Shown here: positions 7,944-25,976 of the stretch, piece after piece
Layout of the letters: each line of letters starts with the position of its first letter
Numbering within the stretch: position 1 is the stretch's first letter
Origin: a virus
Length of the DNA: 26,573 bases
Reading direction: 5' to 3' (one strand)
IMG/VR virus record: IMGVR_UViG_3300027899_000059
Span: 1 to 26,573 of that record
Program-made: the position numbers and the translations under genes
The notes under the pieces: model-generated
Database searches by the model: none
Seen by the model: the letters and a program-made list of their open reading frames with translations, nothing else
Told to the model about the DNA's origin: nothing

Positions 7944-9614
7944 ATGGCACAAATGCCTAAAGCAAGCGACCTGTTCGGTGATGTAACACCACGCGAAGCG
8001 GCTGAACTTCAAGAATCATATCTTGGAGAACTTAACAAGTCTTTCGCTAATGCTTCACACACACCGGGCATGGCACCACAAGTAGACCCAATGGCACAGA
8101 TTGAAGCACTTGTTGCAAACAAGTCACTTTCACCTGACGCAGTTGGCGCACTAAACACAGCACTTGCATCACAGCGCGCAATTTCTGCTGACATTGCAAA
8201 AGAAATCACAACAACATCTCCACTTTCAACATCTTTCGCGGCGTTCGACTTGGAAGCACCTGCAAAGTTGCTTACACCACGTCCAACACCATTGCGTAAC
8301 AAGATTGTTCGTAAGAAGGGTGTCGGTACTTCACACCGCATCAAGCGCATCACAGGTTACACAGGTACAGGTACAGGTGGACAGGGAAACATCTGGCCGG
8401 GTATCACGCAGACCACTCAGAACAACTTTGCTCCGGGTGCATCTACACCACTTATGTACGAGCGTGGGCCACAGATTTCGTACACAGCGGATGATTTAAT
8501 TCTTCCGTACAACTCTTACTCACTATCTGACCAAGTTTCATTCGATGCAAACTTCTCAGGTATGGGTTACCAAGACCTACGCCAACTTTCATCAACTTCA
8601 ACTCTATACGCAACAATGCTTATGGAAGAACGTATGATGCTTATGGCTCGCGGTACAGCAAGCGGATACTCAGGCGCACTAGCGGCTCCTACAACAGTAA
8701 CTCTTACTTCACCGGTAGCAACTTCAGGTCAAGTTGCACTAGCAGGAACAACATATTATGTTTATGTAACTTCAGACGCGGGCGCGTTTGGTCAGTCAGT
8801 TGTTTCAACTGTTCAGTCCACCGTAGTCGCCACAGGAGACGTTCTACAAATTGATGTATCAGCCGTATCAGGTGCCATTGGTTACCGTGTTTATGTTGGT
8901 ACAACAACAGGCGTTGCTAACTGTACTTATCAGGGTCGCACAACTTCAACTACATTTGTAGTTCAAGGTGCTTCATCTACAACAACAGCGGGCAACACAG
9001 CGCCATACACAACAACAGGCGCACTTGCTTCAACAGCATCGGCCGATACATCTGCATACGCAACAGGTTATGATGGAATTCTTCCAACAGTTCTTAACCC
9101 TGCTATTTCAGGTGCAATCAACACAATCAACTCAACATTTAGCACCGCTAATCCGGGCGCTGAATTCCAAACTGTATTCGGTACACTTTACGAAAACGTA
9201 AAGGGTGACCCTGACGAAATCCTACTTAACGGTGCAGACCGTAAGCAATTGTCTGACACAATTAAGAACGGTTCAACAGCAAATTACCGTTTGACACTTG
9301 CACAAACAGAAACCGGCGATTATGTCGGCGGTGCTGTTATCGGTGCATTGAACAACGAAATCACAGGCAAGATGGTAAACCTAACAGTTCACCCATGGTT
9401 GCCACAGGGCGTTGCACCTGTTCTCTCATACACACTTCCAATTCCTGATACTGAGGTATCAGATGTTTGGGCTAACGTGCTTGTACAAGATTACATGGGT
9501 ATTCAATGGCCTGTAAATCAATTCTCATACGACTTCTCTACATACTTCCGCGGTACTTTTATGTGCTACGCGCCTGCATGGAACGGTGTTGTTTCAGGAA
9601 TTGTTTCTGCTTAA
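7944..9614 (+). CDS. Major capsid protein with inserted FN3/Ig-like domain
   Basis: A 556-residue shell protein. Residues 1-100 are helical and charged, like an N-terminal delta/scaffold arm. The HK97-type core follows, with basic arm LRNKIVRKKGVGTSHRIKRI (117-136), a long helix region (215-240, LYATMLMEERMMLMARG) and the P-domain/A-domain region GDPDEILLNGADRKQLSD (421-438). Residues about 247-350 interrupt the core with a Thr/Val/Ser-rich beta domain whose AIGYRVYVGTTTG stretch is typical of fibronectin-III/Ig-like folds; this would be displayed on the capsid surface. AAAAGGGAT serves as the Shine-Dalgarno. The gene is followed by the tRNA. Confidence 0.88.
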   Translation: MAQMPKASDLFGDVTPREAAELQESYLGELNKSFANASHTPGMAPQVDPMAQIEALVANKSLSPDAVGALNTALASQRAISADIAKEITTTSPLSTSFAAFDLEAPAKLLTPRPTPLRNKIVRKKGVGTSHRIKRITGYTGTGTGGQGNIWPGITQTTQNNFAPGASTPLMYERGPQISYTADDLILPYNSYSLSDQVSFDANFSGMGYQDLRQLSSTSTLYATMLMEERMMLMARGTASGYSGALAAPTTVTLTSPVATSGQVALAGTTYYVYVTSDAGAFGQSVVSTVQSTVVATGDVLQIDVSAVSGAIGYRVYVGTTTGVANCTYQGRTTSTTFVVQGASSTTTAGNTAPYTTTGALASTASADTSAYATGYDGILPTVLNPAISGAINTINSTFSTANPGAEFQTVFGTLYENVKGDPDEILLNGADRKQLSDTIKNGSTANYRLTLAQTETGDYVGGAVIGALNNEITGKMVNLTVHPWLPQGVAPVLSYTLPIPDTEVSDVWANVLVQDYMGIQWPVNQFSYDFSTYFRGTFMCYAPAWNGVVSGIVSA

Positions 9615-9688: not shown

Positions 9689-9759
9689 TTCCCTTTCGTC
9701 CAACGGCAGGACAACAGCCTTTGAAGTTGTGAATCATAGTTCGAATCTATGGGGGGAAG
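9689..9759 (+). tRNA. tRNA-Gln (anticodon TTG)
   Basis: This 71-base cloverleaf was folded by eye. The acceptor stem is TTCCCTT with GGGGGAA (two G-U pairs), the D stem GTCC/GGAC, the anticodon stem ACAGC/GTTGT, and the loop CTTTGAA gives anticodon TTG, reading CAA. The variable loop is 4 bases, the T stem CATAG/CTATG, and the T loop TTCGAAT. The discriminator is G, as expected for Gln. CCA is not encoded (CAC follows). CAA is visibly frequent in the phage genes. The 3' acceptor strand doubles as the ribosome site of the next gene. Confidence 0.93.
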
Positions 9760-9762
9760 CAC

Positions 9763-20940: not shown

Positions 20941-21123
20941 TTACCCATTCCATCCGTATCGAACAATTTCATTACATTCTTTTAATGTTTTAAATGTTCC
21001 AACTGTTAATTGCATTGTGGCGTTAATGTGTTCAGTTAATACATAACCAACTTCATTTTTTTTTGCTGAATAATTTCCATAACGGTCTTGGTAAAAACCT
21101 TTTTGTACTGTTTGCTTTAACAT
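20941..21123 (-). CDS. Hypothetical 60-residue early protein
   Basis: A basic 60-residue protein (MLKQTVQKGFYQDRYGNYSAKK...) with no recognised domain. A strong ribosome site, ATAGGGGC, precedes the ATG and matches the AAAGGGGC before the rightward gene at 21772. It is the first gene of the leftward transcript from the divergent control region, with the hairpin at 21141-21160 and promoter element at 21167-21190 directly upstream. Early, host-directed small proteins are often placed this way; that role is inference. Confidence 0.7.
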   Translation of the reverse strand: MLKQTVQKGFYQDRYGNYSAKKNEVGYVLTEHINATMQLTVGTFKTLKECNEIVRYGWNG

Positions 21124-21140: not shown

Positions 21141-21160
21141 ATGAAGCCTGTTTGCTTCAT
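21141..21160 (-). promoter_or_regulatory. 5'-UTR hairpin of the leftward transcript
   Basis: On the minus strand, ATGAAGC pairs with GCTTCAT (7 bp) around loop AAACAG. It ends 17 bases before the start codon, just before the Shine-Dalgarno. The loop with its closing pair (CAAACAGG) resembles TAAACGG in the hairpins at 21728-21750 and 25687-25705, while stem sequences differ. Confidence 0.75.
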
Positions 21161-21166
21161 GTCTTA

Positions 21167-21190
21167 ATCATAGGACATACCTTACGGTTT
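21167..21190 (-). promoter_or_regulatory. Leftward promoter with conserved AAACCGTAAGGTATG element
   Basis: Minus-strand AAACCGTAAGGTATG (21190-21176) is identical over 15 bases to 21698-21712. Three bases later comes TATGAT (21172-21167), a good -10. No TTGACA-like -35 lies at the right distance, so the conserved element occupies the -35/spacer position. Within it, ACC-N4-GGT is an inverted repeat suited to protein binding. Confidence 0.7.
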
Positions 21191-21228
21191 GTATACTTCT
21201 ACCGTGTTGCGTACACCACATTTTCTAT

Positions 21229-21242
21229 CGAACAGATGTTCG
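21229..21242. promoter_or_regulatory. SOS (LexA-type) box, left copy
   Basis: CGAACAGATGTTCG is a perfect CGAAC-N4-GTTCG dyad, the LexA operator form of gram-positives and Actinobacteria. It lies 38 bases upstream of the leftward 15-nt element, exactly the spacing of the right copy. Confidence 0.72.
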
Positions 21243-21540
21243 GGGTTTTAGTCGTTCCGGAGCCTAAGAAGCGGGCAGAATACGGCTTAGTTACAGCCGT
21301 TCCTTCACCTGAAGTTCTCGGTATAGAAATCGGGGGATTGCTCCCAATCGCGCCATGTATGGGTTCAGATTGATAGGAAAGCCCTAGGCGATTCGTTTTA
21401 AGGCTTCTGAAGCCATTCTGCCGGTTGCGGTATCCGGCCCGTTTGTTTAAGTAGACAAAGAAAAGAAACGCCATCTAACGGCGGTTTACGCGGGTACTGG
21501 CCGCGCTCAGGGTTCCTTGCACATTCAACCCGGATAACGA
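21243..21540. other. Hairpin-rich non-coding stretch, candidate structured RNA or origin
   Basis: No convincing gene occupies these 300 bases, which look richer in G+C than their surroundings. Successive inverted repeats seen by eye are: ACGGCT/AGCCGT (21282-21300), GATTG/CAATC (21336-21349), GGCTT/AAGCC (21402-21414), GCCGG/CCGGC (21420-21438), TTTGT/ACAAA (21442-21459), AAACGCC/GGCGGTTT with a bulge (21466-21487), CGCGG/CCGCG (21489-21505) and GGGTT/AACCC (21510-21531). The last loop contains CTTGCACA (21516-21523), complementary to TGTGCAAG in the loop of the next hairpin. A -10-like TATACT at 21192-21197 could start a + strand RNA. An origin or attachment site is an alternative. Confidence 0.5.
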
Positions 21541-21559
21541 AAAAAGAATAGCACATAAA

Positions 21560-21609
21560 AAGACCCGGGGCGTGTGCAAGAAGCCATACGACTTCACCCC
21601 GGGTCTTTA
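21560..21609. terminator. Strong 12-bp hairpin, probable bidirectional terminator
   Basis: AAAGACCCGGGG (21560-21571) pairs perfectly with CCCCGGGTCTTT (21598-21609) around a 26-base loop that itself holds GAAG/CTTC. Reading + it ends in TCTTT; reading - it ends in TCTTTTT, the better U-run. It separates the two divergent transcripts. Loop bases 21574-21581 are complementary to the loop at 21516-21523. Confidence 0.72.
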
Positions 21610-21645
21610 GGCGTTTCTGCCCGTCTCAGATAGTACCTGATTATC

Positions 21646-21659
21646 GAACATCCGTTCGG
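21646..21659. promoter_or_regulatory. SOS (LexA-type) box, right copy
   Basis: CGAACATCCGTTCG is a perfect CGAAC-N4-GTTCG dyad, followed by a 38-base gap to the rightward 15-nt element. Read in its own direction, the left copy is CGAACATCTGTTCG, differing at one base. Confidence 0.75.
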
Positions 21660-21697
21660 GCAAAAATGTGACGAACGCCACACCTTAAATGGCACAT

Positions 21698-21721
21698 AAA
21701 CCGTAAGGTATGCAGTACAGT
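21698..21721 (+). promoter_or_regulatory. Rightward promoter with conserved AAACCGTAAGGTATG element
   Basis: The 15-nt element (21698-21712) is followed after 3 bases by TACAGT (21716-21721), at the same offset as TATGAT in the leftward copy. TAAATGG lies upstream at 21685-21691 and also precedes the third copy. It should drive the early operon from 21772. Confidence 0.7.
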
Positions 21722-21727
21722 TCAACC

Positions 21728-21750
21728 ATAAGAACTAAACGGGTTCTTAT
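21728..21750 (+). promoter_or_regulatory. 5'-UTR hairpin of the rightward transcript
   Basis: ATAAGAAC pairs with GTTCTTAT (8 bp) around loop TAAACGG. It starts 15 bases after the promoter element, as in the leftward copy, and ends 21 bases before the ATG at 21772, ahead of the AAAGGGGC ribosome site. Confidence 0.78.
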
Positions 21751-21771: not shown

Positions 21772-21927
21772 ATGTTAAAATGTAACAATTGCGCGGCACG
21801 TGTTGATGTATTGGCTCACCAAATTCGCGGCACTCAAACTGTAATCATTTGTTTAGATTGCGCTGACCGTTATTACCAAGACCAACTTACAAAGTCTTTG
21901 ATTGCTAAAGAAAAAGTAGGTGCTTAA
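21772..21927 (+). CDS. Small zinc-ribbon protein, first gene of the early operon
   Basis: A 51-residue protein with CNNC (4-7) and CLDC (27-30) pairs, a compact zinc ribbon, and a C-terminal basic/polar helix (DRYYQDQLTKSLIAKEK). AAAGGGGCAACAAA is the ribosome site. As the first gene behind the SOS-box promoter it is likely made very early; a role in binding nucleic acid or a host protein is plausible but not shown. Confidence 0.75.
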   Translation: MLKCNNCAARVDVLAHQIRGTQTVIICLDCADRYYQDQLTKSLIAKEKVGA

Positions 21928-25642: not shown

Positions 25643-25705
25643 TAAATGGTCAGCACCGTAAGGTATCGGGTGTATCTTTATCTTATTGAAGTTAAACGGA
25701 CTTCA
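25643..25705 (+). promoter_or_regulatory. Third copy of the promoter element and 5'-UTR hairpin
   Basis: TAAATGG (25643-25649), ACCGTAAGGTAT (25655-25666), TATCTT and then TGAAGT/ACTTCA (25687-25705) with loop TAAACGG repeat the rightward early promoter in the same order. The hairpin ends 19 bases before ATG 25725. No SOS box precedes it; the RusA gene occupies that position. Confidence 0.75.
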
Positions 25706-25724: not shown

Positions 25725-25976
25725 ATGAACAAAATTGAAAAACTTGAATCAGGCCGTTATACATACCGCGGCGTTTTAATTTTTAAAGATAAGCATTACG
25801 GATTTGCATACAGTTATTCAGTTCGCACCGATAGATATTGCCGCGCCGATAATTCATACCCTGTTACATTAAAAATGATTGCAGAAAAGATTGAACGCGA
25901 TTTAAATAATAGCGGTGCTGTTGAAAACGGTCGAATTATTTTTGATTCACGCACCACAGCAAAGGCAGGTAACTAA
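25725..25976 (+). CDS. Hypothetical 83-residue protein
   Basis: Started at ATG 25725 behind GAGAGGCAAG; an upstream in-frame ATG at 25686 lies inside the hairpin region. The protein has beta strands (SGRYTYRGVLIFKDKHYGFAY...) and a helix (TLKMIAEKIERDLNN), and is basic. No family recognised. It is the first gene behind the third element copy. Confidence 0.68.
   Translation: MNKIEKLESGRYTYRGVLIFKDKHYGFAYSYSVRTDRYCRADNSYPVTLKMIAEKIERDLNNSGAVENGRIIFDSRTTAKAGN

Follow-up and report, generated by a model that had tools for sequence, protein, structure and literature searches.

What drives the two groups of genes that diverge from a short region of this viral contig, and what lies between them? 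The window, i.e. the whole 26,573-nt stretch of IMGVR_UViG_3300027899_000059 analyzed here, carries at this point a left arm beginning with a 60-aa gene on the minus strand (20941-21123) and a right arm beginning with a 51-aa gene on the plus strand (21772-21927), the latter with CxxC-type cysteine pairs; neither product has a family match. A preliminary description had read the region as a pair of inverted promoter modules, each with an SOS box through which host LexA would control an early arm. We compared the window with loci on related viral contigs, designated below by L-numbers.

Genomic context and likely host

The window encodes a WhiB-family transcription factor (PF02467; 24126-24503, plus strand), a family that serves as an indicator of actinophages (PMC10202952), and, because it also encodes relatives of Gordonia and Arthrobacter phage proteins, the host of the virus is likely actinobacterial. 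No repressor or integrase was recognized among the window proteins scanned, which represent a subset of the ORFs of a genome fragment. Elsewhere in the window, a Mu F-like minor head protein (PF04233; 4147-5979, plus strand) has a long C-terminal extension that looks ADP-ribosyltransferase-like by eye, although Pfam does not confirm it; a lone tRNA-Gln (TTG; 9689-9760, plus strand) immediately follows the gene at 7944-9614; and the minus strand at 84-2440, ahead of the portal gene, codes for an FkbM-type methyltransferase (PF05050), a TPR-like protein and an unknown 386-aa protein.

Putative promoters of a wider phage class

The same 15-mer, AAACCGTAAGGTATG, is found in both arms in inverted orientation and with 100% identity (21176-21190, minus strand; 21698-21712, plus strand), as originally reported. 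It includes an imperfect dyad, ACCGTAAGGT, placed 6 nt before a -10-like hexamer, which was read correctly in both arms as TATGAT on the left (21167-21172, minus strand; 17 nt from TATACA) and TACAGT on the right (21716-21721, plus strand). Farther upstream lies another dyad, the TGTG-N8-CACA-like TGTGGTGTACGCAACA in the left arm (21206-21221, minus strand, center near -52) and the TGTG-N8-CACA dyad TGTGACGAACGCCACA in the right arm (21667-21682, plus strand, center near -53), with boundaries accurate to 1-2 nt; these positions are counted from a predicted start 7 nt after the -10 hexamer. A third copy, overlooked in the preliminary description, is located at 25655-25705 on the plus strand and consists of ACCGTAAGGT, a -10 region and the hairpin TGAAGT-TAAACGG-ACTTCA, with no LexA-type box. 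It precedes a gene ending at position 25976. Such promoter sites number three in the window, versus 0.2 per window in dinucleotide shuffles.

The layout recurs in both arms of L003, L022/L102 and L170, at downstream positions in L022 and L105, and also in L008, so that the earlier assignment of divergent promoter modules is well supported. All 14 tabulated modules have 6 nt between the -10 and the end of the ten-base element, which is ACCGTAAGGT except in L170, L025 and one L105 site, where it takes a variant form. A TGTG/TGTT-N8-CACA-like dyad centered 51-55 bp upstream of the predicted start is present in nearly all of these modules, L025 and one L105 site being the exceptions. The -35 hexamer varies among the 14 without conservation, and a sigma-70 scan of the window (TTGACA, 16-18 nt, TATAAT) passed the left promoter alone, at 9/12, with total matches below the shuffle mean. 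At L019:2780 the reversed 15-mer has TTGACA on one side and a TATAAA-like -10 on the other, with an AACGG-loop hairpin next; the reversal of ACCGTAAGGT suggests an operator bound by a dimeric protein. On sequence grounds, the twin arms are members of a broader class of phage promoters, which is retained in relatives, in some of them without the box; we infer promoter activity of the modules from the same evidence.

In T4 middle promoters, a MotA box at a fixed spacing to the -10 takes the place of a weak -35 or assists it. The modules described here similarly combine a conserved element at fixed spacing to the -10 with a weak -35, but, unlike the MotA box at -30, ACCGTAAGGT is centered near -24, is nearly palindromic and is also found in reverse, in L019.

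Several searches yielded mostly spurious candidates. The exact 15-mer was found at 19 loci in viral contigs, with real modules only at L003, L008 and L019 and the others coding or due to chance. A search for the box followed after 30-58 nt by CCGTAAG gave 35 matches, with modules only at L003, L102 and L170, and a same-spacing peak (L195, L201, L202, L213 and L214) turned out to be one unrelated sequence family. In GTDB genomes, a 20-mer had no matches and an 18-mer had two chance matches.

Leader hairpins

Each arm does have a hairpin beginning 15 nt beyond the 15-mer, with the composition ATGAAGC-AAACAG-GCTTCAT on the left (21141-21160, minus strand) and ATAAGAAC-TAAACGG-GTTCTTAT on the right (21728-21750, plus strand), and both fold with z-scores near -4. 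Among 137 distinct hairpins preceding start codons at related loci, which are mutually related and hence not all independent cases, the loop word AACG is present in 18, ACGG in 16 and the overlapping AAAC in 16, versus 7 for the most frequent other loop 4-mer. While the stems vary (ATAAGC, TGAAGC, ATGAAGT, TAGGTTG, TGAGCG, GAACCG and others), the AACGG loop is retained, as would be expected from an RNA hairpin rather than from a DNA-binding site, in which the arms would be conserved.

The boxB of lambda nut and the put sites of HK022 are conserved-loop RNA hairpins located close to where two divergent transcripts begin. Here, too, conserved-loop hairpins are predicted near both divergent transcript starts; they differ in having an AACGG loop, in beginning at about the predicted +1, and in that no boxA or antiterminator was identified. 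We also considered pairing between the AACGG loop and a UUCGUUU segment in a loop of the RNA described below, which is complementary if wobbles are allowed, and dropped it: this part of the RNA loop varies (CGGUUU, CGUGUU, CGUAUU), and AACGG hairpins occur at loci where no RNA was found.

A structured RNA between the arms

The interval between the boxes, which the preliminary description had passed over, is filled by a structured non-coding RNA gene of about 370 nt on the plus strand (21243-21612, ends approximate), with a covariance model match at 21247-21524 and a 3′ hairpin at 21559-21608. The inter-arm interval of the window is shared with L003, L022 and L105 far past the promoter elements, and pattern scans, together with a covariance model built from 7 sequences, revealed RNA homologs in about 40 phage contigs, many of which are near-identical and do not represent independent events. 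The model also recovered L217-L221, loci which had been fetched via the neighboring exonuclease-like protein and not via the RNA pattern; L107-L109 were chance matches to a looser RNA pattern.

Hairpin P6 (21378-21403, plus strand, within 1-2 nt) has a variable stem and a conserved loop, GGCGAUUCGUUU, whose GCGAUU forms the pseudoknot P5 with an AAUCGC located about 34 nt upstream. Of 38 loci, 36 have the six-base P5 helix paired at 6/6 positions, at a distance of 31-34 nt; the strand just before GCC[A/G]U pairs to the P6 loop in five different fully paired sequence versions. P6 occurs with 15 distinct complementary stems (89% paired), which enclose the loop GGCRRUUCGUUU or one closely resembling it. 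Taken together, 93.4% of P5 and P6 cells are paired versus 68.4% in shuffles, and their covariation score is 0.721 versus 0.229 in shuffles and no more than 0.15 when slid; in percentage paired, in cells changed on both sides and in covariation score, they exceed every shuffle as well as all slid versions. Judged by this covariation, which is decisive, the inter-arm block is a structured, pseudoknotted non-coding RNA.

A third element, the P10 hairpin CGCC-AUCUAAC-GGCG (21469-21483, plus strand), is nearly invariant among the homologs found by pattern, in part since the pattern served as the search query. Divergent homologs in L218-L221 do not have the near-invariant CGCCATCTAACGGCG hairpin, which means that the family is larger than pattern searches indicate. 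A strong hairpin with a T run, on the same strand, closes the block in several lineages; the 3′ hairpin in the window is followed by merely a short T run on the plus strand. We found no clear promoter starting the RNA in the window, where no -10 is convincing.

The neighborhood of the RNA differs between lineages. It adjoins a small protein gene, an HNH endonuclease and terminase genes in L104, L115 and L175, on the opposite strand, and is situated between the large terminase and portal genes in L125. In L105, L218 and L219 it begins directly after a gene for an exonuclease-like protein, so there it might arise by processing of a late transcript; the window has it after the exonuclease-like gene and the left mini-operon. 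The proximity to HNH and terminase genes in the first three lineages and the terminase-portal location in L125 would suit a DNA site (cos, pac or origin) in place of an RNA gene; the compensatory changes, which preserve long-range intramolecular pairs including a pseudoknot, the hairpin and T run closing the block on the same strand in several lineages, and the position in the window away from packaging genes make such a site highly improbable.

No known RNA from Rfam 15, cultured phages or plasmids matched the block. Searches of Rfam 15 with cmscan at gathering and relaxed thresholds gave only chance-level scores for it, the tRNA being the sole match in the window; ARAGORN, applied for tRNAs and tmRNAs, detected only the tRNA-Gln at 9689; blastn of the RNA gave no matches in 50,697 phage records and none in plasmid records; and a literature search retrieved no description matching it. 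The RNA family is new in the sense of being absent from Rfam 15, and it is the part of the locus that is of most interest.

GOLLD and ROOL are large structured phage RNAs of unknown function. The RNA described here resembles them in being a conserved, elaborately folded, phage-borne non-coding RNA, and differs in being shorter and in having no Rfam match at any threshold tried. With the phi29 packaging RNA it shares a position of its gene beside terminase and portal genes in several lineages, but it is about twice as long, has no Rfam match, and in the window lies away from the packaging genes. It is conceivable, if rather unlikely, that the RNA is a conserved phage-encoded machine of a new class, distributed over several actinophage lineages and perhaps acting in packaging or host takeover, which in this lineage would have been placed beside a LexA operator so that host DNA damage sets its expression.

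LexA-type boxes

Two perfect CGAAC-N4-GTTCG dyads, CGAACAGATGTTCG on the left (21229-21242) and CGAACATCCGTTCG on the right (21645-21658), both unstranded, are indeed present, and the window has no other exact match. In 100 dinucleotide shuffles of the window the dyad never appeared, and versions with two mismatches are at chance level (8 observed versus 9.1 expected). The gap from box to 15-mer, initially given as exactly 38 nt, has that length in the left arm and is 39 nt in the right; the boxes, placed at first about 60 bp upstream of the starts, are in fact centered about 75.5 bp (left) and 76.5 bp (right) from the predicted +1. The sequence TCGAAC-N4-GTTCG in both boxes agrees with the LexA motif of Streptomyces venezuelae, tCGAAC-N4-GNNCGa (PMC9380542), and the proposed identity as LexA operators fits this consensus. 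Compared with actinobacterial SOS boxes, those in the window are distinguished by lying about 76 bp upstream of a predicted start, by forming a mirror-image pair, and by being dispensable in relatives.

The 994,476 bases of protein-anchored relatives contain 4 exact boxes where composition predicts 0.78, and each of the four is found 75-88 bp upstream of a module-type promoter; the spacing to the predicted start is 75.5-76.5 bp in both window arms, L003, L102, L170 and L105. The left box is retained in the three closest relatives (L003, L102/L022 and L170) in the same position relative to the RNA. The right box is exact in L105, where it lies to the right of the RNA, degenerate in L170, and missing in L003 and L022. 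A comparison with related phages, as initially suggested, thus finds the promoter layout kept, the left box kept in the three closest ones, and the right box patchy. Because the third module has no box and the right box is missing or degenerate in relatives, the box is, by comparison of these loci, an accessory add-on of the island, outside the core promoter module. L025 (4330-4430) has a LexA-type box 87.5 bp upstream of a module-type promoter, after a RusA-like gene, in a position equivalent to that of the box-free third module in the window.

According to the preliminary description, host LexA represses both divergent arms via the two boxes, making the early genes responsive to DNA damage. 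The match to the Streptomyces consensus, the constant spacing and the association of every exact box in the relatives with a module promoter speak for this control, but the boxes are not part of the core module, and the right one is poorly kept. Their centers near -76 are also far for steric repression, an oddity that the preliminary description had itself pointed out: an operator is expected to overlap or adjoin the promoter it represses, and the boxes come closer only to the 5′ side of the RNA. Simple repression of the arms from about -76 is therefore doubtful, and we regard LexA control of both arms as possible, with less than even probability.

That 5′ side suggests another target. Both in the window and in L003, L102 and L170, the left box occupies the 5′ edge of the RNA and precedes the core hairpin by 239-240 nt; L105, which has only the right-hand box, has an RNA that lost its 5′ domain. 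The left box could accordingly be an operator of the RNA and not of the left arm, with bound LexA or a phage regulator blocking transcription of the RNA, and the right box could be a later addition. Against this stand the lack of a convincing -10 for the RNA in the window and the RNA homologs of other lineages, which are boxless, so that the RNA does not need the box; we consider this operator assignment, too, possible at less than even probability. As far as the sequence can tell, LexA control of the RNA by the boxes and LexA control of the arms are equally possible.

Alternatively, the boxes may bind a phage-encoded repressor with a LexA-like site. Most copies (the left box of the window, L003, L022, L105 and L025) have CGAACANNTGTTCG, which is narrower than the LexA consensus, but no repressor gene was recognized in the part of the fragmentary window that was scanned, and we find this unlikely. 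A precedent for LexA itself is provided by the temperate Bacillus phage GIL01, in which the promoter P1 is repressed by LexA (PMC4551915). The two cases are alike in having LexA-type sites, here predicted from sequence, at phage promoters, and differ in that the window has no recognized repressor or integrase and its site is far upstream of the predicted promoter. Overall, the SOS reading of the boxes is plausible but unproven.

A model for the island

We consider it probable that the locus is a divergent actinophage control island, in which twin promoter copies flank a separate RNA gene and the boxes are possibly added LexA operators. Transcription of the left mini-operon and of the right operon would each start from one of two inverted copies of the promoter class. 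A dimeric regulator may bind ACCGTAAGGT and replace, or act on, the weak -35, and the leader hairpin might serve as a 5′-end stabilizer or as a protein-binding site. With less confidence, the CGAACN4GTTCG boxes would be host LexA operators added to the island, of which the left might control either the left promoter or the RNA, while the other might modulate the right promoter from about -76. The missing RNA promoter, the possible processing of the RNA from a late transcript in L105 and L218-L219, the short T run after the 3′ hairpin, the weak sigma-70 scan and the poor conservation of the right box count against this arrangement.

The fixed-spacing promoter class and the AACGG leader hairpins offer testable handles on the transcription program of these phages. 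If the boxes do bind LexA, a phage without a recognized lysogeny module would read the DNA-damage state of its host. Finally, a pseudoknotted RNA with a near-invariant hairpin, kept across divergent lineages of uncultured actinophages, must serve a need of the phage.
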